64,000 bases of DNA from Ulva prolifera (Eukaryota; Chlorophyta; Ulvophyceae; Ulvales; Ulvaceae), in assembly GCA_023078555.1 (NCBI GenBank), contig CM041202.1, positions 4,708,022-4,772,021 of the forward strand, written 5' to 3'. The notes under the pieces were generated by a model that worked only from the letters and a program-made list of their open reading frames with translations, did not search any database and was not told the origin of the DNA. The first letter of the stretch is position 1. Every line of letters begins with the position of its first letter. The position numbers and the translations under genes were made by a program. Below are positions 13,125 to 44,086 of this stretch, in pieces.

Positions 13125-13290
13125 GTGCTCAGCCTGCCCAGCACAACATTAGCAACAAGCTCTTCGAACTTTTCGGTTGTGACAGTTGCTGCAATCGCCG
13201 CCAACGAGACCCGCACATGCTACGTATTCAAGAAGAGAGGCCATCTCCTGAAAGACTGCCGGTCATCCATATGGAGGTCAAGGAAATCCT
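13125..13290 (+). pseudogene. Retrotransposon gag zinc-knuckle fragment
   Basis: One plus-strand frame reads [20 protein letters not shown] at about 13207-13265. This fits the CCHC knuckle pattern CX2CX4HX4C except that the second Cys is Phe. It is not the same gag as E1-E3. The frame runs straight into the (TACC)n array. Confidence 0.5.
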
Positions 13291-13312
13291 CTCGGAGCAA
13301 TCCTCTCGGAGC

Positions 13313-13764
13313 ACTACCTACCTACCTACCTACCTACCTACCTACCTACCTACCTACCTACCTACCTACCTACCTACCTACCTACCTACCTACCTACCTA
13401 CCTACCTACCTACCTACCTACCTACCTACCTACCTACCTACCTACCTACCTACCTACCTACCTACCTACCTACCTACCTACCTACCTACCTACCTACCTA
13501 CCTACCTACCTACCTACCTACCTACCTACCTACCTACCTACCTACCTACCTACCTACCTACCTACCTACCTACCTACCTACCTACCTACCTACCTACCTA
13601 CCTACCTACCTACCTACCTACCTACCTACCTACCTACCTACCTACCTACCTACCTACCTACCTACCTACCTACCTACCTACCTACCTACCTACCTACCTA
13701 CCTACCTACCTACCTACCTACCTACCTACCTACCTACCTACCTACCTACCTACCTACCTACCTA
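13313..13764. repeat. (TACC)n tetranucleotide array, ~113 copies
   Basis: About 450 bp of uninterrupted TACC repeats. The Pro-Thr-Tyr-Leu ORFs here are translations of the repeat. The array directly abuts the left end of a composite hairpin-ended repeat at 13765. The same kind of junction, with TGTA or TCTA repeats, is found at 25.8, 26.6 and 27.4 kb. Confidence 0.97.
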
Positions 13765-14470
13765 TTGTCCGGCGGCTGCCTCATTGCGGCCTCGCTTCCG
13801 CGTCGGGGCTTCGGCGTCGGCTTCGCGTCGATGCATCTGCATCTAGAGACCCCGCGACGCCGGTCGCTACGCGTTCGCGTCGTTCCTCTGCAGCGGCATT
13901 GGGCGTCGAAGTTGTGATGCACCTCTGGCCACGCGGCTTTCAGCGGCGCTCCGCCACGGATGCGACCGCTTCGGAGCCATCTGTGGCATCACATAACTTG
14001 TGTGTAGTATTTACATTGTTTTTAGTATGTCAGGCATCACTTGCATCAGCGTCAAGCATCACTCTTTTCAAGCATCGAAGACTATGAGGCCCCCCTTTGG
14101 GCCCCCCTTCGGGCCACTTTCGAGCTTTTCAGCGATGCTCCCCCACGGACGCGGCCGCCTCGAGCACTGCTCAAATATACAATATTCTGATCATAACTTA
14201 TGCATTGTATTGGCTGCGACAGAAATCGATTGCATTGAGCGTCGAGTACCATGCATCGAGCAGCAAAGCGCCACAGCTACGATGCACCTCTGGCCATGCA
14301 TGCTGCAGCGCTCCGCAAGCATCGAGCTTCATGCTTCAACTTCGAGTTTCAAAGTGTAAGAGCCCCCCGAAGGGGGGCTAGTCGCTTGTCTATCTACTTA
14401 TCTACCTGTCCGGCGGCGGCCTCATTCTGGCCTCGAATCAACCTCGGAGCTTCAACATTGGTTTCGTATC
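13765..14470 (+). repeat. Composite hairpin-ended repeat, one unit plus a partial second
   Basis: The unit starts TTGTCCGGCGGCTGCCTC and contains repeated modules built on CACCTCTGGCCACGC and GCTCCGCCACGGA. It ends with a hairpin, AGCCCCCC-GAA-GGGGGGCT, then AGTCGCTTG (about 14360-14393). After a short TCTA/TCTACT tract the next unit begins (CTGTCCGGCGGCGGCCTC, 14406) but is cut at about 14470 by a Tc1/mariner-like element. The family matches 25826-28080. ORFs across it are shadows of GC-rich modules. Confidence 0.8.
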
Positions 14471-22246: not shown

Positions 22247-22384
22247 CTATGGCTTCATGACAACACTATTGTAATGTTGCCCGCAAGTGTAAGCATGTTC
22301 CAAGTAACAAAGCTGCAATGTGCCATTCCCTTCGTGCGCGTTCGTTTTGCCAATGTCAACAACGGGATACGATCCAGTGAACAC
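22247..22384 (-). CDS. OTUD6-like: OTU gene exon 4 (catalytic His, stop)
   Basis: 45 codons plus TAG. The acceptor is GGCCATGCAG. It contains HAYTCGQHYNSV, the His motif that completes the active site. The open frame continuing upstream to 23140 is intron read-through. Confidence 0.9.
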   Translation of the reverse strand: MFTGSYPVVDIGKTNAHEGNGTLQLCYLEHAYTCGQHYNSVVMKP

Positions 22385-25300
22385 CTGCATGGCCACCATT
22401 GTTGAAGGCATACGAAAAGATTCTCGCTTGCCTTGGTGTGACGATACATCACATGCATGCAGATGGCTGCTACAACACTCCGGAATGCTTAGGGATGTCC
22501 TATCGGACGACAAGCTTGTGGCTACCATCATGAGACTCTGTTTACAACGGTAGCCTGACCATATTGCGCCATGCAAGACGGCCACCTCAAAGCACGAGTC
22601 TAGAGCATTCTGATAGCAGTGTACATCATACATGCTTGCCTTACGAGATGGGAGCAATGTGAGTATATGGGCAGTGGGACTAAGTGTGGCATGATGTGGG
22701 AGGTTCCATACAAAAGCGAACTTATGGTGGTCACATGAAAGCTGATGGGGCCTTTCATTATAAACATCAATGTAAGTGGCATCAAAGGTGGGCAGAGGCT
22801 GCAAAGGCAGCGCACTAGCACGCACGCTATGTATATGTGTATATGCATGGGAGGGCGATGCACAAAACGACAGGCATTTGCAGTGTTCTCTGAAGAGGAG
22901 GCATGGATGGCCTAGTGACGGAGAGAGTTTGCTGAGTCTCTTGTTCCTCACACAGAGCATAGGGAGCACATATCTCACAGGGCATATGCATACTGGATAT
23001 GGTGTTTCAGCGTGAACGGCTCGAACAAATGCGTGTAGACACACGCATGTACTGGTATACAGAATGTTGTGGTCGCATGACGCCTGCCAGGAAATCGACA
23101 AAAGATATTTTCGAGTCAAAAGGCCTGATGCCCCACACAAGTTTGCCTGGCCAAAGCTGGATGAGTATGATGTCTCAGATCTTCACCATCAGCACAGTGA
23201 AGTGATCCCACAGTGCATACCTGTGCTGGAGCAAAACCTTTACCTGAGCTATTGACCCAGGAGCATCATGCCAGAATTAGTACAGCATGTTCAAGTCCTT
23301 GGTCATAACACTGCATGTGATGCCAAAGTGTTGTCTGCCTCATCATCTGGTGCTGGCAACTACATCACCGATCTAGCCAACAGCAAATCCTGTTTCGAAT
23401 AAATCATCCTCTACACTCAGCTCCCGCGACTATCTAGATGCCACCCAAATTGAAGGGCGTTCGGCCGCTCAGTTTGACCTACGGAACTGAGTTCAACATG
23501 TTGAAAGGTAATATGCAAAGTGAAGGGACCAGCTCGGAGATCACCCTTACCGTAACCTGAAACTAAGTACAAAATATGAGGGCCTCGAACCTTGGACCAT
23601 CACACCACAGGATGCCAATTGATGTAATCTTGTGGGTGAAGTGATTGAGCTCGCCGATCGCACCACATAAAAGATTATATGAATCCGCGACGGTCAAGAC
23701 AACTTGGTGCAATACTTCCCACAAGCAAACAGTACATGCATTTGAGCATTATTGACGGAAAGCACCATCATGCGCCAGGCTTGGCACTGAGATGGACTAG
23801 CGGAGCGTAAATGTTGCATGTTTGAAAGCTGATCGCTCAACCTTTCCGGCCATGATATGGACCATTTGCATGTGGTCTCAGCAATCGGCAGTGACAAGAA
23901 ATTCTCAGTGCGACGTCATTACCGCAATCTCAGGATAGCAAAAAACACTTGTCATGTACACATTCATAAAAACACCAATGTATCACGACCCCTGATTGAA
24001 CAGTCGACAACACCTGGACAACATCACTACCGAATACATGAAAGCAACCTGCTGCTTGTCATATTTGTGAGACCCTGGTCCACTCAGGCAGCAGCGGCCA
24101 TGCGCCCTTTTCTTGGGCACGCAGATTTAGACAATTCCATGCATAATGCTGGACCGGTGTCCGCAGCATGTCGAACGAAAGATTGGCTGAACCGCGACAT
24201 TCTGTCTCCATATTCCTATACAAATTTCCCTCTGGTCGGATCAACACCGTACTAGAATATAATGCCTTAAAAAGCTTGTATCTTGTGTCTGCTCAGCATG
24301 ATGTGCGTCCAATGCATCCACCTGACGATGCTGATTGCATTGCATACCACCACATGTGAAATGAAGCACACAACAGGAATACTCTACATTCACAACAGAT
24401 ACTGACCGCGAGCACCAGCTGCCTGTTTCAAATCGGTGCAACATGCTCTGTGTCACAAACATCATTGATTACCAAGTGAATGCATCGTTGTGGAAGTCCA
24501 GTGATAAGACCGCTCTACCACTGGACACTTACACGACACGACGTGTAAGAGTCCAGTGGTAGAGCGGTCTTATCGCTGGACCTCCACAATTGTGCACAAT
24601 ACCAAAAGTCCTACACTTGAAGACTGAAAGCCTTAACACCGCCATTTGTCCGCAACCATTTCCTCCATGCAAACACTTTGTTGTCATGGTCACAACAAGT
24701 TGATTACCGTATAAAATGTACAGAGTCGTTGTGTTTTGCTGAGACAGGAGGAATTCTCGGTTTTATTTAATTTTCAGCCGTCGTTACTGTAGCTACAAGG
24801 ACAGACAGGCGCTTTAATGTTGGCGAGGTTCGTCGGTCTGATGCCGCTCGGGTCGGGACACACGTATGTCATTTTTCGGGCGCTCGTCACAACTGCATTC
24901 AGCCACCTGTGCCTCGGGATTAGAGCAGCGAGTTTGGGTAACCGCTATGAGCGAATCTATTTCCATTGACAGTAACGTTGACGTGCCAGCAGACGACGAG
25001 CCAGCTAGTAATGTGCCATAAAAAATACTGGGTATTTTTAGACATTTGATGCTGACAATGCCGAGCATGTTGCTGCAAAGGCAGAGAGAGATCGCAAAGA
25101 AGCTGAGTGTTCGCAGCTGCGACGTGCAGAGTTTCGTCCGCTTAGACGATAGTGATGGTATGGTGGACGTTGACTCGCCTATCAATGATGAGGAGTCCCG
25201 ATTATGAGGGTCTTTAATGGATGTGTAACCGGGTGCATGTGCAGAGGCACCTGCAGTAGGACACACTTAGTACGGCTGCGTGTACCGGCATTCCTGAGAC

Positions 25301-28300
25301 GGGACATTAACATATTCATTATTTTTGCATGTCGTCTCGCTTCAGCGACGAGAAGCCCGGGACACGCGAATTATTATTAATTTTTGCAATTTCGTCAATT
25401 TCAGAGTCATGGGATGGGACACAGCAATCATTTCGTCGTTCTCACGAATTTATGGCGACACTGATGACTCTTTACATTATATAAGGCTGGCCCTGAGGGG
25501 TAAATTGGGTTCCATATACCGGTATATGAATATATCAAGTATAGTATTCAGCATCCTGTATCATAAGTATAATATTCAGCATCACTGTATGTATCATAAG
25601 TATTATATTCAGCATCACTGTATCATAAGTACTATATTCAGCATCCTGTATGCATCATAAGTATTATATTCAGCATCACTGTATCATAAGTATTATATTC
25701 AGCATCACTGTATCATAAGTATTATATTCAGCATCACTGTATCATAAGTATTATATTCAGCATCACTGTATGTATGTATCATAAGTATTATATTCAGCAT
25801 CACTGTATGTATCTATGTATCCATTGTCCGGCGGCTGCTCCGTTCCGGCCTCGCCTCCGCGTCGGGGCCTCGGCGTCGGCTTCGCGTCTGTGCATCTGCG
25901 TCCAGAAACTCCGCGACGCAGGTCGCTTCGCGTTCGCGTCGTGCGTATGCGACGCTGTGGGGCGCCGAAGTTGCGCTGCACCTCTGGCCACGCGGCTTTC
26001 AGCGGCGCTCCGCCACGGATGCGGCCGCTTCTGGTTCGACCGAGGCATCACGTATTCTAATTAGATTATATGCATCATGTTTAGTGCATCAGAAACGAAT
26101 TGCATTGAGCTTCGAGCATGACACATCGCGCGGCAGAGCGCTGCACCTCTGGCCACGCTGGCTGCAGCGCTCCGCCACGGATGCGACCGCTCCGGAGCCA
26201 GCCGAGGCATCACAGAACTTATGTGTAGCATTTGCATTGTTTTCAGCGTGTCAGGCATCACTTGCGTCGGCTTCACGCATCGGTTTTCTCAAGCGTCGAG
26301 GACCGACAGGCCCCCCTTCGGGCCCCCCTTCGGGCCACGTCTACTGGCTGTCGAGCTTTTCAGGGGCGCTCCGCCACGGACGCGGCCGCTTCGAGCACTG
26401 CTGGAACATCACAAATTCTGATCATGACCTTTGCATTATAATAACTGCGACAGAAAGCGCTTACATTGAGCGTAGAGCACCGTGCATCGAGCAGCAGGGC
26501 GGCGCAGCTGCGATGCACCTCTGGCCACGCTGGCTGCAGCGCTTCGCCAGCATCGAGCTTCATGCTTCAGCTTCGAGTATCAAAGCGCAAGAGCCCCCCG
26601 AAGGGGGGCTCGTCGCTTGTGTATGTATGTATGTATCCATTGTCCGGCGGCTGCTCCATTCCGGCCTCGCGTCCGCGTCGGGGCCTCGGCGTCGGCTTCG
26701 CATCTGTGCATCTGCTTCCAGAAACACCGCGACGCAGGTCGCTTCGCGTTCGCGTCGTGCGTCTGCAGCGCTGTAGGGCGCCGAAGTTGCGCTGCACCTC
26801 TGGCCACGCGCCTTTCAGCGGCGCTCCGCCACGGATGCGGCCGCTTCTGATTCGGTCGAGGCATCACGTATTCTAATTAAATTAAAAGCATCGTATTAAG
26901 TGCATCAGAAACGATTCGCATCGAGCTTCGAGCATGACGCATCGCGCAGCAGAGCGCTGCACCTCTGGCCACGCTGGTTGCAGCGCTCCGCCACGGATGC
27001 GACCGCATCGGAGCCAGCCGAGGCATCACAGCACTTATGTGTAGCATTTGCATTGTTTTCAGCGTGTCAGGCATCACTTGCATCGGCTTCGAGCATCAAT
27101 CTTCTCAAGCGTCGAGGACCGACAGGCCCCCTTCGGGCCCCCCTTCGGGCTACGTCTACTGGCTGTCGAACTTTTCAGCGGCGCTCCGCCACGGACGCGG
27201 CCGCTTAGAGCGCTGCTGAAACATCACATATTCTGATCATACCTTTGCATTATATTTACTGCGACAGAAATCGCTTGCATAGAGCGCCGAGGACCATGCA
27301 TCGAGCAACAGATCGCCGCAGCTGCGATGCACCTCTGGCCACGCTGGCTGCAGCGCTCCGCCAGCATCGAGCTTCAGCTTCAGGTATCAAAGCGCAAGCG
27401 CCCCCCGAAGGGGGGCTCGTCGCTTGTGTATGTATGTATCTATCTATGTATCGATTTTCCAGCGGCTGCTTCATTCCGGCCTCGCCTCCGCGGCGGGGCT
27501 TCGGCGTCGGCTTCGCGTCGATGCATCTGCATCCAAAAACTCCGCGACGCCGATCGCTTCACGTTCGCCGCGTCCGCGTCGTTTGCTGTAGAGTGCCGAA
27601 GTTGCGCTGCACCTCTGGCGGCGCTGGCTGCAGCACTCCGCCACGGATGCGACCGCTTCGGAGCCAGCTTAAGCATCACAGAACTTATGTGCAACATGTG
27701 CACTGTTTTCAGCGTGTCAGGCATCACTTGCGTCAGCTTCACGCATCACGTTTTTCAAGCGTCACAGCCTGGCAGGCCTTCGGGCCCCCCTTCCTTGGCT
27801 AGTGGCTGTCGACCTGTTCAGCGGCGCTCCGCCACGGATGCGGCAGCTTCGAGCCCTGCTGAAATATCACATATTCTGAACATAACTTCTGCATTATATT
27901 TACTGCGACAGAAATCGATCGCATTGAGCGTCGAGCACCATGCATCGAGCAATAGAGCGCTGCAGCTGCGATGCACCTCTGGCCACGCTGGCTGCAGCGC
28001 TCCGCCAGCATCGAGCTTCATGCTTCAGCTTCAAGTATGAAAGCGTAAGAGCCCCCCGAAGAAGGCTTGTCGCTTGTATTCTTCTTCCCCGGGTATAAAA
28101 GTATAGGATAAAGGTATAATGAACTTTATCGATTGTAGAGACGCAACGAAAACTCGGATCACAAAAGCAATTAGGTATTCAGAAAGCCCTTGTTTTTGTG
28201 GTTCGTACAAATGTTAATAGTTGTCAATTCATATCAATCGGCGCTGTGTAGACATCGAATAATGGATCAGAGTGGAAAATCATTCAATGCCTCACTCACT

Positions 28301-31300
28301 TTCCAGAATTGATTGTAATTCGCTCACAAAGTTTCAGAGCAAGATAAAAACATCGTTGGAATCTACATGAACAATGGTTTACGCCTATACAAGTCACTGA
28401 ATTGCCTGGCGATGTGTATGATGGTCAACAGACAGAATCAGCAGGACCTATTCTTGGCCCGTCCATAACCCATTCACAGCCCGTTCACAGCCCTTTCACA
28501 GTGCATGCACAGCGTATTCACCTATTCTTGTTCGATGGTGATCAGCATTAGTTAAGTGATCCATGCTAGCTTCCTGAGCTCGTCAATTGAAGCAACACGT
28601 GATCATGTGCTGGCTCGCTCACGGAACATAGCATTCCTAGCAGCAGTATGTATACATATCGGGACTATAGCAATATAGATATACATACTGAGAGTATGGC
28701 AGGATATATGTATCCGATCTGTGCGTGTCGGACACTCAGCTCGCTCTGGACAACGCACCATGCGATCGATGCTACTGGCCGTAGTGCACGTGCACAGCAA
28801 CCAGAGCCCACAAATGGCATACTTCGTTACGATTAACGCACAAGGGCTCACTTGACTTCGCAGCTGTTCTTTTAACTTGAGCTGCGCGACGCGTGCACTG
28901 AGTGTGGTCATTCGCTTGACACTTTGACGGGCTGCCGAGCTTTCAACCTTGCTCACATGACTGCATACTAACGTGAACGCGTGTGTGCGGACACTTGGGA
29001 CCTCGACAACTCTCAGCATGGTCCAAGCCGACCCAGGCTTCGCTTTGGACGACAGGACTGTCAGTATGTTACGCTCAACTTAGTAAGACGACAGACACAC
29101 ATTGTTGAACTGAATTGCGGACTGTGGATCGCTTTCAGTCTCCGCTGTGCATCCCTGACAACTAGCACGGATGTTCATCGTGTCTGATGTCGCAGTAACG
29201 CATGGAGTCGCCTGAAGCACAGATCCACAGATATTTAATGCACTGCAGATATTTAGTGCACTGCTAGGCTCCGTAGTTCCCAACTGTATCCCCGTTGCTG
29301 TGGGGAATAATGTTCTGCAAGGGTATATCACAGCCTGCATATACCCCTCTCAAGGGTGTACCAACATATCGCTAGTATACCCCTTATTCTGTTGATTTTG
29401 AACTTATACCGGTATATAAATCCTATACCCATATACCGGTATAGGCCAGCCCTAATTATATACGGTATACCTACAATAACTCCAACCCCCCCTTGCAAAG
29501 CTAACACCGTCACAACAACGCGGACAAATCCTGCAAATGTGACTGTACACGGATTCAGAACCACATGCTGCTGCAACTTTTGACAAGTGCCACTTGAATG
29601 AATAACCTAGGCGAGGGAGGGAGAACCAACATCCAAAGCACATAGGCTCGCTATGAATTGTGTAGCAGCAGCAATGATAAAGACTGCAGTTTGCCGTCCG
29701 GTTCAAGCACTACGTTGGAACAGCCTCTGCCGCCTCACTGCGGAGTACACATTCCAGCGGTGTCGAAGCTGATTTCGTGCAGCAATGTTATCGGCTAGGA
29801 AAGCAGAAGGGTATGAGCCAGCCATAAATTGTGCGATTCTACATGATGCACAGATTGCTCGGGAGCTTTGAATTTTCTGCAAACGACCGCCACAGGAAAA
29901 CCTTAACACAATGAACAGAATCTAAAGTCCATTGTACTGCCAAACAAATTCATCAAATCAGTCTCTTGGGTTGCTGTTCGCGAACGCCGAATCCACCATC
30001 ACTGGCACAGCCCGTGCAGTGTACTGCGATTGCATGAGCATTGTTGAGTCCCGCTCTGCTCAGAGTCACATTCCCGAATAACTCGCCAATACATTGTGTA
30101 CATCTCACACATTCGTAGCTATGTTGCCACGGATGCCTACGAAAGGGGCGTCCACAGGTTGGCTGGCGCCAAGCAAATAAGGCTCTGTGGCTCGGTCTGC
30201 TGTGTCAGCTTGCCTTGTGGTCCACATTGAAATGTGACACATGCAGAAATGTGTGCATGGCATGTGGTTTCATGACAATCATTGCGAAGATACATAGCTG
30301 CACTTGTGCATCATGTCAGGGTAATGATGTATTTGATAGGCAGCAACGATTAAAAAGAAAACCCGCTGATTTAGTATGTAACCAAAAGGCGCGTCCAGTG
30401 CCATTAATACAGTGCTCTCTTGTAAATTTGATGCAGAGGGGAGTTCCAGCAGCAGGTAGTTTTGCCCCTCAATTAACCTCACTGAAGACAGCCTGGTCTG
30501 CTGGTTGACACGGCGGCTGCATGTGGTATGCCTGCGATTGTATTGAGACCCCTGTTGACCGTCCCGGCAAATCTTGTGCACTTGAAAGGAGGTCGTGCTG
30601 GAGGTTCTGCTCCGCCATCCAAAAAATTCTACTGTACCAATACATGCATGGCAACGAGAATACATACCTGGATCTGCACACCCAATGCCTCAGCTAGAGC
30701 CTGCAACTCAACTTGAGACCCCCATTCATTTCCGCGGACCCCTGCGATATAGGCTGTCATCTGGGACTGTTCATTTGAACAGATATCAGAATTGATGATG
30801 AATGGAGAGAATTCGTCTTGTCGACTCTCAATGTAGTTTGCTGCCATTTCTCTCAGCAAAAGGTGAGGCAACATCTGACTGTCACCAAGCACAAGCCCAA
30901 GAACGCGGCACTGGTGCTCGAGAGCCCGATACATGCAGTTGCCATCTGCCTGCACACGAGGGCAACTCTCTGAAAGATGCATTGGCAACTTTCTTGGCAA
31001 ACTGTATTTGGTAAGCAACGAGCTATTGGTACATGCTCCGGGACAAATAGCACATACGTCACAGTGCCCACGCGCCAGCAGTGAGCGCCTGGCGTCCAGC
31101 CTACATGTGGAACTTGTCCACGCAAATTCTCAAACAATCACAGATGGGGTGAGCATTCGTCATGAATTGGGAACGAGAATGATTTGTGATGCGTAATTCA
31201 ACTGTTTGTGACCCAAGCCTTGTGAGATGAAACTTGTTGGTGGTGAGCAATGATCGTGATCTTTTACGAGCCACGAGTGGAGCGCGCACTGCTTCTGTAC

Positions 31301-34300
31301 TTGAAGCTGGTGTGATAGACGTGTGGCTACAGTTATGACATGCCAGCGCAAGGGAGTTGAGAGCAAGCGCTCTGCCAATGCTCTGGTCTCTGCCAATGCT
31401 GTGTCCACACTGTGTCAATGCGTCATTGCATATTCCACAATGAACGTGTCTCATCTCGCAAGTACCTTATCTGTGAGCAGGTTCAAATTGAGGTTCAGAT
31501 TGTGACGACTTTCGAATATGCCCTGACGACACACTATCACACAATATCAAGAAAGAGTAGGCTGAATTCAGGGAGAATGATTGGCGATCTGGGGCCAGAG
31601 GCCGAGACTAGCTTGAGGTTTCCATGTTGCTTCTGACATGTGGTGGTGAGCGCATGGCAGGAGATGGCCAACTCGTAGCAGTCCTACTGCCGATAGAATT
31701 CATACCTCGTCAAGTGGGCTGATTTGATTTAGTGGTTCCCTTCACCACCAGGAGCAGAATCATCTGTATATACGGTCTCGTTACCCCCTAGCCATATCGC
31801 AGATTGATTTTCTCTTATTACTATTTAGGGCTTCAAATATGATCTGGACATAGTGACGGCAGCCTCAGATGTCGATAATTTTGAAAGTTCACGTGAATAT
31901 ATGTGAAGATTACCGTACTAAATTAAACCCATCGACATCGAGGGCAGTGTTATTGTGTACAAAATATATCTGGGGCACGCCAATTTGGCCACCGTTATGC
32001 GTTATAGGTGTCGGCTTTTTTGAAATTTCGGAGACTCGGCGTAACAGCTGAGCAGTACACATGACGAAGGCGCGTGCGCAGAGCGCGCGACCTGCTGCAC
32101 CAGCGGTGCAGCGCGCTGTAGCGCGGTGACACACGGCACGAATTTGAAATGAGCACCGAAGTAAATGTAAGGGACATGCTGCAGCTAGGACACATCAGCT
32201 GATGTGTCTGTATGCCAACAATTCGCACAGTGAGACTGCTTTGTCGCCAATCGTGAAGTGTGTCTAGCAAACATGTCGGACAGTGACAGCATCGGAGATG
32301 ATGCCGACGTAGACGAACAACAGTATGGTGATGATCACTACGATTACGATAAGCACGTCAACTATGATTCAGATGTTTATGCTGGAATGTATGAGATTGG
32401 CGATAGTCAGTGCAGTATTGAATCGAGTCTGCCTAGCGACGATGGCCAGCAGGGTCGCGGTGAGTTGTTGCGAACGTGCTAGACGGTGAGCTGCGACATG
32501 CGGTACGTGACGTGAGGTGCTCTAAGCGTTACGGGTGTACGAAATATTCCTGGAGATACGGCCCATCTGGCCACCGTTATGCATTACAGCGAGGTGTTTC
32601 AATGCCACTGCAGGCCTGCGTTCTGCGTTACGTGTCGATGGGTTTGATTTAGTACGATATATACGATTTATACACCGTATCGAGTCTTACACTATAAGGT
32701 TTGCCATGTATTCGTATAATCATGCCGCATACAATGTACACCTACATGGTCTTTGCTTCATATTCTCTGGTGGACACTGCACAGCTTAGAGGACACCGTA
32801 TGCTGCCGCGTACACGCCGCATACACCGTTTAAACTTTCAAGAATCAAACGCGTATAATCGTATTTGCACAACTGTACCGTATGTGTATATGTAGGTATA
32901 CTGAGATGCAACTCCTGAGCTATGGCATCTTCGTAACCCTGGAGCCTCAGCACTGTGACCTAGCATTACGCAAGCCAACACCGAATGCACTAGCGGGAAA
33001 GTCTGGAATTCATTCAGCATCCTGAAATGCGCTGCAGCACCCTGACCCCACGTCATGCCGCAAAACACAGCCTAGGACCATGTACAATAAACACTGTTCC
33101 CATATAAGGCCGGATTCAGTGGACCAGTACACAACAACGATCCTAAGAAGCACAAACAGAGCATGCAGGTCACTGTTATGCACATTTGAAGCATTACTGC
33201 ATTGCTTGTTTGTCTCGAATCACTGTTGTTTGGAAGTGACTTGTCCAACTCATCCTGTACGCGAACGTCAAGACCAAGCCTGCGAACCCCTCGATGCACT
33301 TAAGTCTCCCGCTCAAACGGCACAGCAGCCTGAACGGAGCTCCACACCGCACCCAAACGACCAGGCTGCAAACTCTGGGGCTGATCTCGGCCTTGCACTC
33401 GCATGCGGCACCGTGCACCGCACAGCCTCTACCTGAGCAGGAGTACCACTGTATATCTCTAAGTCATGTCTGCATGAGTTCAGCCGCATCGAATGCTTCT
33501 GTGCGATCTCGACGCTGGTCGCTAAATAAGCAATGTTTGCCTTACAGCCCAACGCCTGCAGTAGCATTGGTCCCCTGCTTGCACTTTGTGTTGCAATGGC
33601 TGTCATCACCGTCTTCCGCGGGAATGCAATTCACTGGTAGTGGAAGGACACAGACCCGCTGTCATCAACACCATTGCCCCACAAGGGCCGCAGATCTGCA
33701 GAGGTATTGCATACATATCCGCTTCAATGCACATACAGGCAGACTCACACAGAATCCACCAAAACAAGAGTTGATATTCGATCATCACTTAAACAGCATT
33801 GCAGCGCAATAACATGCCTTACTACTAGGGCTGGCCCCAAGGGGTATATTGGGTTCCATATACCGGTATAAGGGTATATATTCTTATACCCAGGGTATAC
33901 AGGTATAAGATAAAGGTATAATGAACGTTTTCGATGATAGAGACGCGATGAAACATCTGATCACAGAAACAATTAGATATTCAGAAAGCCCTTGTTCTTG
34001 TGATGTCTACTGATACTGAAAGTATTCATTTCAGGTTTATAGGCGCTGTGTAGGCATTGTTGAGTGTTTCAGGTTAGGGTGGAAAAACACTCAATGCCTT
34101 ACTCACTTTCCAAGATTGACTGCAATTCGCTCAGAAAGTTACAGAGCAAGCTATTTATATTGTTGGAATCTACGTGAACAGTACTTTACGCCTACATAAG
34201 TCACTGAATTGACCGGCGATGTGTATGATGGCCAAGAGACAGTATCCACAGCACCTATTCACAGCCCGTCCATCACCCATTCACGGCCCGTCCATCACCC

Positions 34301-37300
34301 ATTCACGGCCCGTCCACAGCCCTTAGACAGCGCATGCACAGCCCATTCACCTACTATTGTTCCACACTGTTGAATGTTGTTGAAGAGATCCATGCTAGCT
34401 TCTTGAGCTCGTCAACTGAAGCAAAGCGTGATCATGTGCTGGCTCGCTCAAGGGACATGGCATTCCTAGCAGCAATATGTATACAAATCGAGATTATTGC
34501 AGTATATATACACATACTTGGAGTAAGGCAGGATATATTCATCCGATCTGTGCGTGTCGGACACTCAGCTCGCTCTGGACAGCGCACCATGCTTTCGATG
34601 CTACTGGCTGTAGTGCACGTACACAACAACCAGGAGCACATAAAATGACATAGTACGTTACGATTAAAGCGCGAGGGCTCACTTGACTTCGCGGCTGATC
34701 TTTTAACCTGAGCTGCGCGACGTGTGCCCGAGTGTGGGCATTCGCATGACACCTCGACGGGCTGCCGAGCTGACAACCTTGCCCACATGAGTGCATACTA
34801 AGTAGAACGTGTGCGTCTGGACGCTTGGGACCTCGACAACGCTCAGCCTGGTCCAAGCCGATCCAGGCTGCACGTTGGGCGACAGGACTGTCAGCATGTT
34901 ACGCACAACTTACTAAGACGATGAGAACACATTGTCGAACAGAAATGTGGATCGCTTTCAATCTCCTCTGTGCATCCCTCAGAACTAGCACGGATGTTTA
35001 TCGTGTATGATATCACAGTAACGTATGGAGTCGCCTCAAGCACAGATCCACAGATGTTTAATGAACTGGTAGGCTCCGTAGCCCCACTGTACCCCCATTG
35101 CTGAGGGGAATAATGCTCTGCAAGGGTATATCGCAACTTGAATATACCCCTCTCAAGGGTATACCGACATATCGAGATTATACCCCTTATTCTGTTGATT
35201 TTGAACTTATACCGGTATATATACCCTATACCCATATACCGGTATAACCCCTTATACCGGTATAGGCCAGCCCTACTTACTACCAAAAGTGAAATCATCA
35301 GCGGTGCACGTGCAACAGGCATGCCTGTTATGGCTGTGTAGGAGCTTCCTGTATAGGCAAAGGCACCGTAGTAAATGACCTCAGCGATGGAATGTACTCA
35401 TGCTGAATCGGGCATAGCTGTTTGAATGCCACAGAGCTGCCATTTTGTGTGCCAGGAAAGACACCGTCATGCTGTCATGCACTCAGTTTGCAGAGGCTGG
35501 GATTGAAAATTGGTGGTCAAATTTGGTGGTGTCTGAAATATGCACGTCCACATACGTGTAAGTCAGAAATGTATGATCTCAAGTGCCAGAGTTGTGAGCT
35601 CGGATGTGCTGCGTTATGACGCAGATGTGCTGTTTTGTCTGCTAGCGGAGGGGGTCATGCACTCCCGCTAAAGGGTGGGACCAGTAAGGGCGCGCACAAT
35701 CGACGGCGATTTTCACTGATTGGGCAAGCTCTGGACTATTGTTTACGTCTAATGCACAATCTGAGAGGTCTAACTCGTACGATTGGGGAAATCGGCCCGT
35801 ATTCGCCGATCAGGCTTCTTGGGTTGGGGAGAATCGCCATTTGGGGAGCACGGCTCCCCAATCCTCCCCGATCCTTCCCAATCGCACAGCCGCTTGCCCA
35901 ATCCTTCCCAAACCATCTCTGTTTAGGCTATCATTGCATTTAGGAGCCCCTGGGGGGTCGCGACTGTTTCTATGGCCCCGCCAGGTGCTCATGTGGTAAT
36001 GTTGGAGTCTGAAGTCCGACCATCATGCCACTACGGCCCGGAACTCAATGTGTACACACCTGTGTGATACCTATTTAAGGCATGAAATATGTACCTCAGT
36101 TTAGCATACATCCTCTCCCGTTGGAGCACGTATCAGCTGACAGACACCTGTGCATGATTTGTTGTCATTCACCGTCGCAGCACTCTGCTCATCCAGGTCA
36201 GAGCTCTTCAAGCAATTTCAGTTACTTGTATTTAGAGCTATGAGTTACAGTTCTGCGGACCGTATGATCGCAATGTAGCATCACTATCACTGCCAATGAG
36301 CAGCCTCAATGGCAACCATATACCATATCCGGCTGCATTAAGATACGATGCTGCCAATCGACATTGTCTGATATAAAAGGAAGAGTCATCCGCGCCATAT
36401 GCACGTGTTGGGTGCTTGTAATCGAAGGTGTCACATCCGTTGAGCTGATGCCTCTTCGATAAGGCAGCCGCAATACACTGTAGCCCAGTGTGGATGTGCG
36501 CTGGTGTGGATGCGTGGCTGACTGAAGCGGGCTAGCAGATTACCCAACCAGGTATCACCTCGGTGTAGTGTGGACATTGATTAAAAAATAAAGACGGTGG
36601 TTCAGAGCAGTTGCAATGTGAAGGCCTCCGTGCAGCTGCAGAGCTGGAAATAGTTCGCAGATCGTGCAGCTCATGAATCAATGCTTACTCCACTGAATCC
36701 CTGGACTGCCCTGTGTAGTCTCATCGTTGTATAGTGGGAGGTGGTGAGTAGGCTCAGTGAGTCTCTTGCAACATGTGCATTTTCAGTACATGCACCATAT
36801 GTGTCCAGTCTTTCGCAAGGAGGCTACATGAAAGTGAAGCATATCTCAGCTGATAAGTCTCCGGCGTATCTGTGGACTGATTTTATGTGTCGCAGTTGTG
36901 TCGCGTTGCGAATGATCACCGCATTCTGCTCTCACCGATGCGCAATTCATCAACCCAGTTTGCCAGCAGGCGCTACTGTCTGGCAAAACTGCAATATGTT
37001 ACCGCATGGTCCTATCGCAGATTAATCTGGCATTACCATTGCTGGTGCATGCGCGCGCAGGGGCTTGGCATCTCACGGGATCACGTTGGTAACCTTTGTA
37101 TGCCACACGCACATACATTCAGTACACTATAATTTAACAATTGACGTCCAGATAACCGCTAGCCGGCGATGGTCAGACAGGTTCACGGCAGCCCAACTTC
37201 GTTACACATGGTGAGGTCACCCACACACACAACGAAAATGTACCAAGCACCAACAGAAGCAACAAAATCGTGTGTTGTATATCAATTTTGATGCTCTCCG

Positions 37301-40300
37301 TGCACTGGACACGATGCCGCGCGATTGGGGAACAAATAAGCGCGATTGGGGAGAATCGCCCGTTCGCTGAAATGGGTCATCGCGTTGGGGAGGCTCCCCA
37401 ACGCTGGGATCGACCTCCCAGAGTGCCCAAACAACATAGACAATACTCAAATGCTTCCCCAATTTGGCAAATTCGCTGTCGAATTTGCGCGCCCTTACTG
37501 TTCCCACCCTTTAGCGGGAGTGCATGACCGCCTGCTAGCGAAGACACAGACCACCATCATGCACTGAAGTGCAGCAGCTGCATCTGACGAGGAGTAGCCA
37601 TGGTCCTTGACACATGCAGAAAATTGCTTGAGCATTTGTGGTTCAAAACATGGAAACACGAATGGATTCACAGGCGGTACACGAGTCTGGGCTCGCTCAA
37701 CTTGAAGTGCATCAACTGGCACCGGTACATGCTGGTCAAATTGAAGTATAGCAGCTACGACCGTTTGCTTTGAGATGCAACAAGTTGCTCCTGCAACTCT
37801 GTGACTGGTATGTTTCAGCTCTTGGGGGCAAGCGTGTCTAGCTGGTTTCTTCAATCAATTCCAGCATTTCCGTTGCAGCGAGGCAATGGCATCTCCGCAA
37901 CACATGATTGTATTCTGTAACCAAGAAAACAAACACTGCAGCCGGCAACAATAGGTACACCGCTCAGGCATCAGTTGTGGTGGGACCAGCACCACTGCAG
38001 ATAATCATGACAAACATTTCTAGTACACGCTACGCTGAGCTTGCTGCGATTGTTCCACCAACTGCAGTTCGAATGTTGCTGCATATTCACTGCTGTGCAC
38101 TCGGCTGAAACTGCATGACGCACACATGTGAACAACGAAATCTTCGTGTGAAAAACGGCTGCATCGATGGCGCTTCCAGCACCACACCAATCATTCACAG
38201 CAAGCATTGAACCATACTAATATCTTTGGGACGTTCACGAGGCAGCAGCAGCGGTTCAGCGAGGTTTTGCCTGTGGTGGCCGGACCTGACCCGGCAGACC
38301 ATCTACCACCTATGTCACGTATGCACAACATAGGTACAGCAGCTGACCAAACTACGTTGTGTGTAGGTATCACTGGCGCAGGATTCGTGAGGGAAAGGTG
38401 ACACGGACATCATCACCCTGGGGATCAAGGCACATAGCTACTAGCGCCATGATCGCAGGGGCGTTCGATACGGCTGAGACTATGCAGACATGATGTGGAG
38501 ATATACAGTAGTATGCCTGTTAAGCTGGAGGCTGTGCAGCACAGGATGGCGCATGCGAGTTCCAGCCTGTGATTAGACCCGGAGTCTGCAGCCTAGTGGT
38601 TTAGAATCCTTTGGATGTTCCCTAGAGCATATACTTTGACTACTCGGGTGGAGGCTTCAGGCAGCGCGGGCAGGCACGAGATCTGCCTGCAGGCCACTGT
38701 TCCCCAGCTGGGCCCAGTGAGCGGGAGACATAACCGCTCAAAGGGGAGTCACGCTGCCTTGTCGTGCTGTCCTATGTCAATAGCCGACGGGCGGCCATGC
38801 AATATGCATTACTTGTCGAGCCTTCCAGATCGGTTCGACGGTGGTTACAAAGCTTCATGGATGTGAATGCTTGCCACTATTACGCCGACACCATCAGCAA
38901 GCATAGTGTCGATGCAAATCTACACTACAATGTGCTGCAATGTGTTTAGAACGTGCGCACAGGAATGTACCCTTCTTTTATGGCCAAACCGAGCCGATGA
39001 CCTTCCTGCCTTGTTCTCTTGAATGATGAGAAAGAGCATGAGTCAACACGCATGATGAACCAAAGGCAGGATATGTAGATTCTTGCCTGTTGCTGAGACA
39101 CAGGCACGCCAGCGCAATGCGCATACTCTCGAGCACACAGGCGCCTGCCTTGGCTGTGTATCATGACCTGGGCACGCAGCTGCAACAAGGACCACGCGTG
39201 CATATGCATATGCAGCCCTGCAACTCGCGTAACATGCATGCAGAAGCAGCATCAGAACAATCTGATATGTCGTAGCAGGTCCATAGCTTGTCGCAGACCT
39301 AGCCCTCATGATCTGATGCTACTGGCTACACCGCTACGGTGAGTGTGAAATCACATATCACAGCTCTGAAGCAGGCTGCATGTTTGACAGGGGTGATGAC
39401 AACCATGCCTTGCTGCATGGTGTCTGGGTGTACAAGGATTCAACGACAAAGGACAGAGCAGGTCTACAGACATGACCTCGAATTGCAGAGGTCCCACGAG
39501 ACTCGATATGTCACCGCAAACTGGAGACAGAGTCGGACGCAACTAATACTTGGGCATCTCTCGATGTCCCTTGTAGCTCGCTCGACGGTAGAATGATCCA
39601 TTTGCATTGGGATCAAGCACACAGCCATGAATACTACCATCTACGTCCTTCATCGAATTCAATGATTGCAGCTGATGCTGGGCAGCCCCGAAGCTTGTGT
39701 ACGGATACAGATGCCAAATACACACGAACTACCTCTGACAGCAACATTTGCACTGGCTACTGGTAGGAAACGCACCGGTATGTCAAACACTTTGAGCCCA
39801 TGTTTTGCAAGGACTTGATCTAGAGCGTCCTGTTCTCTATCTCTGTCAGTTTCACCGGCTGCTCCAAGTTCTTCACTGATCCTTTTCTGGTCTTCCAGTT
39901 CCCTGATCTGCTTTCTCTCCCGCTTCTGCTTGGACCGCTGTCGCAACTGCATCACGAAGCCGAGTGGAATGTGAGAAAACTTCACCTGCGGACCTGAAAC
40001 TCACATAATGAGATACACTGAACTTGGTAGAAGCGCTAGTATACTTCGAGGCCCCTGAGCCTTTCAACCTTGCCGAAAACAAACGTTTTGCCCGCAGCTC
40101 TCTTGTGACATACACGCCAGTCGATCATTTATTTCGCCTTGTACTGCAGCCACAATCTTGTCAATAGTCAAAGCCAACTGGGCCTCCAGTAGACCTTCTG
40201 CCAGTCAACCCAGGGTTGAAACTCTGTTGGTGTAACTCCACTTTGCAAGAATCTCGCCACCGCCACAGCGATCCGATCCATCATGATATGGCCTAAGACA

Positions 40301-42886
40301 AGACGCAACACCAGGATGTCAGTGAAACGCAAAGAACAAGAAAGAACAAAAAAACATCAACATCAATAATATCCGATCTATGACACAGGGACGTAAGACT
40401 GCCGGAGTGGACCGTCTACCATATGTGTTCCACCTTCCGCCAACAGCATCAGGCAGACGCTCCTGGTCCGGAAGCTTCGGTGAGATTTCCGGTGCGCACA
40501 CTCTGAACTTGACATTGACAGCCAGTTCTGCCAATGACAGCCAGTTCTGCACCTCCCACCATCAGTGGTGTAGCAACAGCACAGGATCGCAGGAGCAGCC
40601 TGCCAGATTGACAGTGCAAGGATGACGTCCCTGACGGCTGAACCCATAACAACCATGCAATAGGGTAAGTGGCACACCGCTCAGCTCTGCGTTAGTTGCA
40701 GTGGACCATGTTGTAATACAAGTTGACACTGAAATTCTTCAGGCAAAAGCAGGATCAGAAACCACTCAGAGAGGCTGCGAAAGGGACATGTCAATCAGCC
40801 AGTCTAGTAACATTCAATAAAAATTCCACAATGCATTGCTATCTGAAATCCAGCGGCCACTCTCATAGATGGGCTTTGGGCGACTCTTGAGCACAAATAT
40901 GACTTTGCCGCAAGCTATGTAACTGATCAATACATATTCCTTCAAGATTCCCTCTTGGGTGATGTCGGGGAGGACGGAACAGATTAACATTTTGAAAGCC
41001 TCTGCGCTGGCATTTGCATGATGTGGCTGCTGCGCCGCAGGTGTCGCTGTGTTCTGTGGCGGCAGTATCTGACCATGAATGGAACTGAAAAAGCTGCTTC
41101 TGGCAGCACAGAATACTGCACTGAATTAAATGCAGTGACACACAACACATAATGCAGGCCCCCATTGTTGTTAAACAGCTCGCTATGATGCATGAAGCAG
41201 GCCTGATGGGTCATACTCCCATGAACATTTTGTACGCACATCTCGCTTGGGGCACCTCATGTCACCTACTTCATGTCACGGCTCACCGTCTTGCAAGATT
41301 GCAATAGTTCGCAACAACAACAACGCATAAATTCCTCATTCAATTATCCTCTTCACAGAATTGCGTTTGTATTGCGTCATCATCAGCCAAACCCTGGTAT
41401 GAGGACCCGCATCTGGCAATGTCCAACATGTTTGCTAAGCTTGCAACTTCACACACGGCGATAAAGCAGTTTTACTCTGGTACTTGTTGGCGCAGGGACA
41501 TATAGGATGCTAAATCTATATGCATTTGCCATGTGCACTGCACAACCGGAGCGCCATACATTTCATCAGTTCACAGGAATGGGTTGCGCCAAAGAAGACC
41601 AAGTACATTGCACAAGCACAATTAAATTATCTGCGTGTATCGTGAAGTTGTAAGAGTCGCTGCGTTGCAGTCCTTCTTCGGAAATACATGTGCAACGTGG
41701 ACACCCGATGTGCACCTGTGGTATACCTATTGTGCATCTCTCACTGCTCGACTTCATTTTGTCTGTAATAGCCGGTTTTGTCCAGAAACTAGATTCTCCT
41801 AACACTGTGCGTGATGCCTAAAAAAAAGGTTCTGAGCCTGTTTGGAAAATTCCCAAAGCTCAAACACCTTGCAGCCTCATGCGGAAGAATCCATTTCCCG
41901 AACAGACGTGGCCAGTCAGGTGCGGGATGTTATGCTTGTGAGGCACAAGTGCTGAGTCAGCACTGCTGACCCCCCTGACGGCACTATACGATCCAACTTT
42001 TCGAAGACCGAGCTATGCCAACTCATCGCGGCCTGAGGATGTCAAAGGAAAATACTAGCCCTGACTTGTAGCCAGCAGTGATAAGGATCCCCACTTGATG
42101 CGGTATCACAGATTGGAATTACTTCACTTACCAACCAAATCAAGACACCAACATAGACCATGCAAGGCACGCTGAACTGGGTTGTCCATGGCGCTGCTGC
42201 TCATGACTGCATGTCCCGTATATAGCGTGTTCAATCCATGTCGGCACCGATATTACACAAACTTGACGTTGCGCAGACATGTTTTGGCTGTGTCAGGTGT
42301 ACAGCAGACTTGAACGTGGCAATGCCCCTCCCCGGAACGGCCAGTCTTCACCAAAATTCTTGTAAAGCTGCGTGACACTAGGCAGCGCATGACAAGAGAA
42401 ATCTAATCACGGCCTACAACGGATATGGCCGCTGCACAGCTAAAATGGCAGCAGTGGGTACTTGCAGAAAGCTGTAGAGATACAAACCAGGAACTACGGT
42501 ATATGAGGCCACTGCATTAAGAGATTCATTAACACTGGGTAATCTACGTCGAACCGTGGGACACGTTTGCCGTGAAGCTCTCCCTGGCCTGCGTGGCTTC
42601 CCAGCATGGTAACCTGAGAACAACTCCAGGCACGCCATGTGTGATGCAACAAGCGAAGCATTGTAAATTCCCGTACCTTGCAGATTCGTTCGAGCGCGGC
42701 AGCCTCTTGGTCGTGCTGGATGGCATTCGCTGCGGAATCTCCGGCCGATCGCAGGCATTTGTCGAAGTCTTCGGTCTCGTGTCTATGTCTTGAACACATT
42801 TCCAGCTCTTTCATTCTGAACTCTTCCTTCGCATTCTTTCCCGCTCTTTTTGCCTGGTCTTTTAGAGTCCTCAACTCCTGCGACAT
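22247..42886 (-). CDS. OTUD6-like: OTUD6-type OTU-domain deubiquitinase, 4 exons over 20.6 kb
   Basis: Predicted cysteine protease that removes ubiquitin. Four exons (42886-42677, 39946-39776, 30949-30668, 22384-22247) join in phase 0 without stops into about 266 residues, close to the usual length of about 290. Residues 1-127 are charged coiled coil (for example LKDQAKRAGKNAKEEF and RSKQKRERKQIRELEDQKR). The OTU domain follows: DIPADGNCMYRAL with catalytic Cys about residue 132, then LREMAANYIESRQDEFSPFI, NEWGSQVELQALAEALGVQI, and YLEHAYTCGQHYNSVV with catalytic His about residue 258. The exon 2/3 joint DIP|ADGNCMY and the exon 3/4 joint VQIQ|VFTGSYP fall exactly where the family is continuous. 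Donors are GTACGG, GTGCGT and GTATGT; acceptors all end TGCAG. The Met at 42886 is the first in its frame. The family usually has a few more residues before this point, so an upstream exon may be missing. All nearby transposons lie in introns or flanks. Confidence 0.9.
22385..24487. other. OTU intron 3, part without recognised elements
   Basis: Nothing assigned. Two plus-strand frames look somewhat protein-like, 23064-23255 (RYFRVKRPDAPHKFAWPKLD) and about 23438-23560 (PPKLKGVRPLSLTYGTEFNM). They have no motif I know and are probably decayed transposon sequence. Confidence 0.4.
24488..24589. repeat. 47-bp near-perfect palindrome (fold-back)
   Basis: The left arm 24488-24534 and right arm 24543-24589 are inverted copies with three mismatches around an 8-bp loop (GACACGAC). 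The right arm reads GTCCAGTGGTAGAGCGG, which resembles a tRNA D-arm/A box. No TSD is seen. It could be a fold-back MITE or two head-to-head SINE heads. Confidence 0.85.
25535..25815 (+). repeat. ~29-bp AT-rich minisatellite, ~9 units
   Basis: The unit is approximately GTATTATATTCAGCATCAC plus TGTATCATAA, with small TGTA insertions in some units. It ends in TGTATGTATCTATGTATCC and then abuts the first composite repeat. Confidence 0.9.
25826..28080 (+). repeat. Three tandem ~0.8-kb composite hairpin-ended repeats
   Basis: Units at about 25826-26620, 26640-27425 and 27455-28076. Each begins (T)TGTCCGGCGGCTGCTCC or a close variant. Each contains three or four modules built on CACCTCTGGCCACGC(T/G)GGC and CTCCGCCACGGA(T/C)GCGGC, plus a GGCCCCCCTTCGGGCCCCCC tract. 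Each ends with hairpin AGCCCCCC-GAA-GGGGGGCT followed by CGTCGCTTG; unit 3 has a damaged hairpin. Units are separated by TGTA/TCTA repeats. Long ORFs on both strands come from the GC-rich modules and differ between units, so they are not genes. Confidence 0.88.
29468..30667. other. OTU intron 3, upstream part
   Basis: No repeat ends or domains recognised. Minus-strand frames at 29909-29703 and 30665-30279 are open but show no known motif, and the OTU protein is complete without them. Confidence 0.45.
30668..30949 (-). CDS. OTUD6-like: OTU gene exon 3 (catalytic Cys, core)
   Basis: 94 codons from ADGNCMYRAL to GVQIQ. The acceptor is CTCGTGTGCAG and the donor is CAG|GTATGT. It contains the Asp and Cys of the active site and the WGSQVEL segment. 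Confidence 0.92.
30950..31912. other. OTU intron 2, part adjacent to exon 3
   Basis: I see no coding domain, TIRs or tandem arrays. Only short overlapping ORFs are present. Confidence 0.45.
31913..32657 (+). mobile_element. TIR element with acidic ORF, internally deleted copy
   Basis: 745 bp. The left end CCGTACTAAATTAAACCCAT matches the inverted right end TCGTACTAAATCAAACCCAT (18 of 20), with TA on both sides (31911-31912, 32658-32659). Further inner TIR identity includes GGCCACCGTTATGC. The TA TSD suggests Tc1/mariner or a relative. Its ORF is shared with the inverted relative at 62.3-63.3 kb, which runs further, so this copy has an internal deletion. Confidence 0.75.
32258..32482 (+). CDS. 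Acidic N-terminal ORF of the TIR element, truncated
   Basis: A 74-codon frame. The likely real start is the second Met (32273, MSDSDSIGDDADVDEQQYGD). It is very rich in Asp, Glu and Tyr, and contains EIGDSQCSIESSLPSDDGQQ, which is conserved in the copy at 62.6-62.9 kb (about three quarters identical by eye). Acidic N-termini occur in several transposase families, but no catalytic motif is visible, so the function is open. The frame ends early compared with the other copy. Confidence 0.5.
   Translation: MCLANMSDSDSIGDDADVDEQQYGDDHYDYDKHVNYDSDVYAGMYEIGDSQCSIESSLPSDDGQQGRGELLRTC
32660..33817. other. OTU intron 2, unassigned
   Basis: 32660-32900 is dense in CGTAT/ATACG words (such as CCGTATCGAGTC, CCGCATACACCG, CTGTACCGTATG), suggesting a decayed TIR element. 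The overlapping 172-aa plus-strand and 98-aa minus-strand frames at 33.3-33.8 kb have no motif I recognise. Confidence 0.4.
33826..35275. mobile_element. hAT-like element, TAGGGCTGGCC family, copy 2
   Basis: 1450 bp with TIR TAGGGCTGGCC at both ends and a perfect 8-bp TSD CTTACTAC (33818-33825, 35276-35283). Sub-terminal sequence has many TATACCGGTATA and AAGGGGTATA words. Near 34255-34330 there is a 22-bp tandem repeat (about three units of the CCCGTCCATCACCCATTCAC type). There is no transposase frame, and the 105-138 aa ORFs overlap one another. Inner sequence matches 28083-29454 almost end to end. Confidence 0.92.
35614..37854 (-). pseudogene. Unrecognised ORF split by a Mutator-like element
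   Basis: From 37854 to 37540 a minus-strand frame reads like a real protein (KQTVVAAILQFDQHVPVPVD, VNPFVFPCFEPQMLKQFSAC, HGYSSSDAAAALQCMMV). If the element 35648-37531 and one TSD copy are removed, the frame crosses the joint and stops after eight more codons at 35614. I do not recognise it. It lies in OTU intron 2 on the same strand, but the OTU protein is complete without it. A decayed transposon ORF or a lost exon are both possible. Confidence 0.35.
35648..37531. mobile_element. Mutator-like (MULE-type) non-autonomous element, copy 2
   Basis: 1884 bp. The first ~45 bases (GGTCATGCACTCCCGCTAAA, then GGGTGGGACCAGTAAGGGCG) are repeated inverted at the right end with a single change in that stretch. 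The perfect 9-bp TSD CTGCTAGCG is at 35639-35647 and 37532-37540. A 9-bp TSD with long TIRs points to Mutator. Sub-terminal sequence is rich in GATTGGGGA and inverted TCCCCAATC words. No transposase was found inside. Confidence 0.85.
37855..39775. other. OTU intron 2, part adjacent to exon 2
   Basis: No supported feature. The plus-strand frame 38207-38401 (GTFTRQQQRFSEVLPVVAGP) looks mildly protein-like but has no motif I can name. Confidence 0.4.
39776..39946 (-). CDS. OTUD6-like: OTU gene exon 2 (basic coiled coil)
   Basis: 57 codons from LRQRSKQKRER to LKVFDIP. The acceptor is GTGATGCAG and the donor is CCG|GTGCGT. It matches the basic helix just before the OTU domain in OTUD6 proteins. 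Confidence 0.85.
39947..42676. other. OTU intron 1
   Basis: A 2.7-kb GT-AG intron. No TIRs or LTRs recognised. Minus-strand frames at 40552-40319 and 41241-40984 are open but are not needed for the OTU reading frame. Confidence 0.5.
42677..42886 (-). CDS. OTUD6-like: OTU gene exon 1 (coiled coil)
   Basis: 70 codons from ATG at 42886 to ICK, with donor AAG|GTACGG. The frame is open further upstream, and a possible acceptor (GCTGCTCCAG, about 42904) precedes the ATG, so it may be an internal exon. Confidence 0.75.
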
Positions 42887-44086
42887 TGCCCGCGCCGTGA
42901 ATCTGGAGCAGCGAATTGCGCATATGGCCAGCGCAGATCAGCAGATGCTAGCTCGCACGAACCCTTTTGTGACGATGCATCATCTGCCCTTTGGTCTCAT
43001 TCCGTTCGAGAGAATCTTGTACCATCTTGTTTCAGCGGTTGGTGTCAACTTTTTTTCAGGCAAGAGCAAGTACTAGCGTTGAACGTTCCAAGAAGTATTC
43101 AAAATCTCTTACGAAGCGTTATAGTTGAAGGCGAAAAGCGTGGTCACCGTGACAGATATATTCGGTCAGAGTGCAGGCCCATACGAGATGTAAAGCCGAC
43201 TGAGTCAGACAACTCGGGTCGCGCCTGACTCGGGGCACTAGCAGCGAGACTTACATGACTCGGACTGGCGCTGCCAAGCAGCACACGGCATCAGTGCCAC
43301 TGTTCATGGCCGTATCCTGTTGTGACGTGGCTAATGGCGTGCGTTCCCACATCTGACGTGACGGTTTGAATACCTGAAGACACATTTGCAGTCAGGCGGC
43401 CTGACTCAGGCCATTGCAGCGAAGCGAGCGCGCAGGTTGGTCGGATCTAGAAGCTATATGTGATGTGCATTGGAAATGTCTGGTAGACCTGAAACTTACT
43501 GGCTCCATCTCTTTGCCCTGACAATTCAACAGCTTCGCGACAGACCAGGCCTTGCAATGTGGTACGAACGACGAATGTGACAGATTACCTAATCCTTACT
43601 AAGATACGCCGAAAACGTATGATGTCAGGTCATGTACGCTTCTTACGTCGTATAATATCTGAATCTCCAATACTGCCGCATATGGCGAAACTGCGCCGTA
43701 AGGCGTATTAGATGCCATATAAACGTATGATGCACCGTATGACCGTATGATGTGCCGTACATGCCCTTGATGACCCATACGATGGTCATATACGCATGTT
43801 TGATTGCACACTGAGGGCATGAGGTAGGGCCGTTGATGGTTTGAGAGCGTTATCATCCCTAGTGTGAGCAAAGTAGCATACATATGAAATACTTTAAATA
43901 TACCCAACAATAGCATGCATGTATCTCGTTTAGAGATACGGGTTGTGATGAAGCTTGGCCCAGGGCGGCTGCAGCAGTGCAATTGGTCAAGCAGGCATAT
44001 AAAGCGCATCATGCACCCGTACATGACCAACATATTGAACTTATGTAACCATCGTATTGAACCGTATATGACCACAGTATTTATAT
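42887..44086. other. Region upstream of the OTU gene
   Basis: Should hold the OTU promoter and any missing first exon; I see no convincing promoter motif. 43590-44080 is dense in CGTATGA/TCATACG words and may be a decayed TIR element related to the one near 32.7 kb. Confidence 0.4.

Follow-up and report, generated by a model that had tools for sequence, protein, structure and literature searches.

The 64,000-nt stretch of DNA analysed here (the window) carries on its minus strand a predicted gene for an OTU-domain protein, spread over ~21 kb (Table 1). The original prediction had assembled it from four exons (A-D), and all four were recovered on the minus strand at exactly the positions given, with every A-B-C-D joint in phase 0 and bounded by GT-AG, and a joined frame of 801 nt that runs without an internal stop to a TAG. 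Two of the accompanying figures had to be corrected. Introns occupy 96.1% (1-801/20640) of the four-exon model and 95.9% of the five-exon model described below, rather than ~98%, and the codons of the catalytic Cys and His, starting at 30937 and 22276, lie 8661 nt apart and not 8.3 kb, since 8283 is the length of the intron. To locate the exons by homology, the 2006 six-frame segments of the window (≥20 aa) were searched with yeast Otu2. Exon C lay in the top-ranked segment (E = 2.5e-5), exon D in the second (E = 0.081) and exon B in the third (E = 0.1), ahead of a fourth-ranked segment at E = 8; the three were collinear on one strand, which goes beyond chance. At E values of 0.081 and 0.1, exons D and B are weak when taken alone, and yeast Otu2 did not pick out exon A among these 2006 segments. 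The claim that a gene finder would miss this gene applies only to finders that rely on ORF length, and such finders are not the usual choice for eukaryotes.

Table 1 Features of the predicted Otu2/OTUD6-like gene, its introns and the neighbouring DNA (window coordinates).
Feature	Position	Strand	Description
Proposed exon 1	42963-43025	-	63 bp, MVQDSLERNETKGQMMHRHKR; RHKR-E in register with Otu2 RHRKE
Proposed intron 1	42878-42962	-	85 bp, GTTCGT...GCAATGTCGCAG; holds the start codon of the original prediction
Exon A (four-exon model)	42677-42886	-	210 bp
Exon 2 (exon A minus its first 9 nt)	42677-42877	-	201 bp; N-terminal helical region, by homology
Intron 2 (A/B)	39947-42676	-	2730 bp; GTACGG...ATGCAG
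Exon 3 (exon B)	39776-39946	-	171 bp; basic helix (Otu2 alpha4 region) and helix preceding the OTU domain, by homology
Intron 3 (B/C)	30950-39775	-	8826 bp; GTGCGT...GTGCAG
Exon 4 (exon C)	30668-30949	-	282 bp; N-terminal part of OTU domain; Cys codon 30937-30935
Intron 4 (C/D)	22385-30667	-	8283 bp; GTATGT...ATGCAG
Exon 5 (exon D)	22247-22384	-	138 bp including TAG; C-terminal part of OTU domain; His codon 22276-22274, Asn codon 22270-22268
E4	41105-41503		Intron 2; diverged E3 relative (73%)
E2	35649-37533		1.9 kb; inverted ends of ~120-135 bp; flanks GCTAGCGG/GCTAGCGA, 7/8 alike
E1	33826-35275		1.45 kb; ends TAGGGCTGGCC/GGCCAGCCCTA; 8-bp target duplication CTTACTAC
E3	31911-32659		0.75 kb; 27-nt inverted ends; copy on contig C5 89% identical
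E1'	~25482-29454		E1 family, ~3.97 kb; ATTATATA at both ends; left end uncertain by 2 nt
Fold-back repeat	24481-24596		Intron 4; 55-nt arms, 89% complementary
Copia-type retroelement 1	45756-50540	-	1594-codon open frame
Copia-type retroelement 2	52335-57714	+	Spread over several frames
Retroelement piece	908-1411	+	Tf2-type integrase tail
Retroelement piece	6004-6522	-	Copia reverse transcriptase
Retroelement piece	8623-10050	-	Copia-type integrase region

The joined product matched the Pfam OTU family (PF02338) over the complete profile (1-128 of 128) with 63.5 bits against a cut-off of 23.3 (E = 3.6e-17). An overlapping match to C65 (otubain) scored 25.9 bits, just over its cut-off of 24.3, and NCBIfam, a library of bacterial and archaeal families, returned no match. 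The nearest chain among solved structures was yeast Otu2 (E = 9.8e-16, 61.5 bits), matching residues 68-262 of the 266 in the product and leading OTUD1 (E = 3.2e-6, 30.3 bits) by ~30 bits; OTUD3 (E = 1e-4) and OTUD5 (E = 8.6e-4) came next. The predicted catalytic triad of Otu2 is Cys178, His300 and Asn302 (PMC10175282). DGNC and HYN of the algal product align with these positions and all three residues are kept, so that the proposal of one OTU protein with a catalytic Cys and His is upheld and an Asn can be added to it. Otu2 is described as the yeast orthologue of OTUD6 (PMC3950621, PMC11316749), in a group with OTUD6A, OTUD6B and Arabidopsis OTU5 (PMC3950621). The OTUD6 identity originally suggested agrees with the clear lead of Otu2 over OTUD1, OTUD3 and OTUD5, and the locus is very probably an ordinary Otu2/OTUD6 orthologue whose introns have been inflated by transposons, a class assignment made from the nearest solved structure and the literature grouping. 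The Otu2 ubiquitin-contact residues Tyr223, Phe225 and Leu255 are replaced by Phe, Ile and Gln in the alga, none of the three being retained. We have not treated these residues as defining the Otu2/OTUD6 clade. At basic patch 1 of Otu2 (KKRR, residues 116-119, the start of alpha4) the alga has RQRS aligned, i.e. two basic residues of four, with more basic residues following.

OTU exon matches were found at two places in the 88.9-Mb genome (six candidates scored), the second being in a different OTU gene, and no second Otu2-like exon match was found among the six candidates scored in this exon-by-exon search. The gene is therefore apparently single-copy, although a search conducted exon by exon could overlook a further copy whose exons are split. 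The other OTU gene (L002, positions 1100-2780) carries its DGRCMFRA, FWGGEVE and HYDLL pieces on short exons of their own (grouped by eye), and we take it to resemble plant-type OTU proteins.

The 5' end of the gene was re-examined by searching the window upstream of 42.9 kb for a first exon, as had been advised, and a 63-bp candidate was found. Its ATG at 43025 has A at -3 and G at +4, and an in-frame TGA lies 9 nt upstream. A phase-0 GT follows directly, in a weak donor (GTTCGT). The candidate carries the RH[K/R] motif of the family and lies 85 bp upstream of exon 2, and splicing over these 85 nt to CAG|GAG gives RHKRELRTLKDQ, in gapless register (by eye) with Otu2 RHRKENKDLQNK. The motif RH[RK][KRNQ], picked after it had been seen, occurs at two of the 63,998 minus-strand codon positions in the window. 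With a stricter motif, no first exon was found on the minus strand between 42886 and the end of the window, and the looser RH[RK] occurs at four places, of which 42974 is the only one in the window to adjoin exon A in an ATG-led frame. BLASTP aligned residues 15-280 of the five-exon product with Otu2 in one piece at 22% identity (E = 3e-21, a single-pair value), the Otu2 sequence consisting of residues 16-91 and 112-304 with X between. The alignment thus begins at residue 15, in the N-terminal region with its RHRKE-like start, yet exon 1 adds nothing to the phmmer score against 8c83, which was 61.5 bits without and 59.4 bits with this exon.

A five-exon model of 284 aa, beginning at the upstream exon, is therefore likely to be the correct one, and the start at ATG 42886 in the original prediction is probably wrong. 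Under the five-exon model, its ATG TCG CAG (MSQ) would be the last nine bases of intron 1. It is rather unlikely that translation does start at 42886 and that there is no upstream coding exon, which would leave the function unchanged. The frame is open from 42937, and both the weak donor and the unimproved structure score speak for this shorter model. However, Otu2 has RHRKE ahead of the segment that matches ELRTLKDQ, and close upstream of exon A stands an RHKR in an ATG-led frame, with its phase-0 GT and gapless join. That the motif is so rare, chosen post hoc as it was, also argues for five exons.

Six repeat insertions were marked in the introns, making up ~8.57 of 19.92 kb of intron (43%), a lower bound because only 40 of 429 candidates were scored in intron 3 and 40 of 384 in intron 4. 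The claim of at least six transposons is therefore roughly right as a count of repeat insertions, although one of these is only a fold-back and a transposon protein was demonstrated for none of the six. Copies of E1 on contigs C9 and C1 match it at 99.6% and 99.5% identity, respectively, which marks it as a recent arrival, and 8-bp target duplications flank all three copies that were read (CTTACTAC, ATGATGGC and TATATTGG). E2 has 20 near-full copies in the genome at 92-95% identity, with exact 8-bp duplications in each of three fetched copies; in the window copy, 7 of the 8 bases agree (all read by eye). The longest open stretch is 139 codons in E1 and 123 codons in E2. Both elements combine terminal inverted repeats with an 8-bp target duplication, as do hAT-type DNA transposons, and we regard them as hAT-like; P-type elements also give 8-bp duplications. 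E1' is a more diverged relative of E1. Ten of the larger intron ORFs were selected by hand and scanned against Pfam: none matched above cut-off, and one gave a sub-threshold match to DUF3481 (E = 0.0077).

E1' also contains tandem arrays (window positions 25537-28061), one with a 29-bp unit and the other with a unit of ~815 bp in three partial copies. The 815-bp repeat recurs widely in the genome, several occurrences being on contig C7 at 3.5-4.7 Mb, with neighbouring copies. Possibly a transposon brought this satellite along or seeded it.

To place the introns in context, their size was compared with that of other genes in the genome (88.9 Mb in 44 contigs), which is that of a photosynthetic eukaryote, given its 38 matches to light-harvesting proteins. 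As a yardstick, 41 chaperonin pieces form 12 loci of 0.95-2.6 kb, on contigs C1, C3, C5, C6 and C8 and none on C7. The 29 gaps between these pieces have a median of 221 nt and a maximum of 1108 nt, the largest of which may hide unmatched exons and one of which is an overlap (-56). Light-harvesting pieces that look like parts of one gene are at most ~1.6 kb apart, with unmatched profile between (by eye), and the exon pieces of the second OTU gene lie within ~2 kb. In annotated relatives of Chlamydomonas, the median intron length is 198-343 bp (PMC8226300). Introns of 8-9 kb are far outside this small housekeeping sample, none of which comes from C7, the contig of the present gene, so that effects of the gene and of its place on intron size are not separable here. 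The spread of the gene over 21 kb would be due to mobile DNA that has swollen its introns. Lengthening of introns by transposons is a known phenomenon.

The surroundings are also rich in retroelements. Upstream of the gene (45.7-57.8 kb) lie two Copia-type retroelements on opposite strands and within 15 kb, and three further retroelement pieces are present in the window. Copia reverse-transcriptase matches on C7 numbered 18 among the 150 scored of 676 candidates, against 3.3 expected. All 18 lie within 3.43-5.39 Mb, around the gene at 4.73-4.75 Mb. The matches were counted by eye, with the window's own copies outside the 150, and the P of 7e-9 for this enrichment is too optimistic because the interval was drawn, after the fact, around the observed matches. 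Rfam and tRNA scans of the window found nothing. A 320-codon frame at 13125-14087 (+) matches the Pfam PT disordered repeat (E = 7e-15) and may be either a gene or a low-complexity repeat.

Such introns raise the question of whether the gene is still functional. It is very unlikely that it is decaying, its exons intact while giant introns block productive splicing. Introns far above the sampled norm, one recent insertion (E1) and a weak first donor speak for decay, but 284 codons over five exons have remained free of stops and frameshifts, every joint is GT-AG, the catalytic residues are retained and no second Otu2-like exon match was found among the six genome candidates scored. In Arabidopsis, full-length transcripts of genes with heterochromatic introns, most notably IBM1, depend on special factors (PMC11265718). 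By analogy, full-length expression of the algal gene could depend on an IBM2/EDM2-like read-through of intronic heterochromatin in a possibly heterochromatic stretch of the chromosome. We consider this highly improbable; if true, it would couple transposon silencing with 40S recycling in an alga. Finally, OTU domains are carried by some retroelements, and retroelements are dense nearby, but it is extremely unlikely that the exons belong to different genes or that the OTU domain was carried in by a transposon: exons B, C and D all match Otu2, in order and on one strand, and thus do not fall into different families, no further close copy of the exon-4 OTU match turned up among the six genome candidates scored, and no Pfam match above cut-off turned up in the ten hand-picked larger intron ORFs.

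The predicted function follows from the assignment to Otu2/OTUD6. Helices alpha1-alpha4 of Otu2 hold the free 40S subunit while its OTU domain acts on eS7 monoubiquitinated at Lys83 (PMC10175282), and eS7 is also the substrate protein reported for OTUD6 in flies (PMC11316749). On the ubiquitin linkages tried in one study, no activity was reported for either Arabidopsis OTU5 or human OTUD6B (PMC3950621). This fits a role on monoubiquitin at the ribosome, and a chain-cleavage assay of the algal enzyme may likewise come out blank. The algal eS7 keeps the motif RELEKKF, whose KK corresponds to yeast 83-84 when positions are derived from the printed ends of the alignment (query 7 = chain 62, taken as ungapped up to the lysine pair); by the same derivation, positions 72 and 76 in yeast numbering are Ala and Arg. 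One match to a Not4-type RING (zf-RING_4, PF14570) is present in the genome.

We therefore propose the following model, in which we infer expression, splicing, 40S binding, eS7 as the substrate and exon 1 from the sequence. A nuclear gene of this alga, a photosynthetic eukaryote, would encode an Otu2/OTUD6 orthologue of 284 aa, probably in five exons. By homology, the free 40S ribosomal subunit would be bound by the N-terminal helices of the protein (exons 1-3), and the OTU cysteine-protease domain encoded by exons 4-5 would strip monoubiquitin from eS7, which would ready the subunit for another round of translation. The 8.3- and 8.8-kb introns, which lie in a Copia-rich chromosomal region, would have grown as short non-coding elements of hAT-like and related kinds inserted one after another, and would be removed as ordinary GT-AG introns. 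The enzyme type is already well known and the gene is one more algal member, which leaves the understanding of OTUD6 unchanged. Nevertheless, the analysis improves the model (probably with five exons) of a gene that could be broken up or overlooked by annotation pipelines expecting short introns, and it illustrates recent intron growth through transposon insertion in a conserved gene. It also adds an alga with an OTUD6-like protein, a Not4-type RING and, in eS7, a lysine pair at the target site.

Among known systems, IBM1 and other Arabidopsis genes with heterochromatic introns resemble the algal gene as functional genes with repeat sequence in a long intron (PMC11265718). Arabidopsis OTU5, human OTUD6A and OTUD6B and Drosophila OTUD6 are likened to it only through their grouping with Otu2 in the literature (PMC3950621, PMC11316749). 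The closest comparison is with yeast Otu2 itself (PDB 8c83, 7pl7). The two proteins are only 22% identical, differ in length (284 aa in the alga, 307 aa in yeast) and differ at all three ubiquitin-contact positions, the change from Tyr to Phe being conservative, and at two of four basic-patch positions; long, repeat-filled introns are a feature of the algal gene. Equally, an N-terminal helical region, a basic helix, a pre-OTU helix and an OTU domain would, by homology, follow one another in the same order in both, both have the Cys/His/Asn triad, and both end in HYNS[LV].
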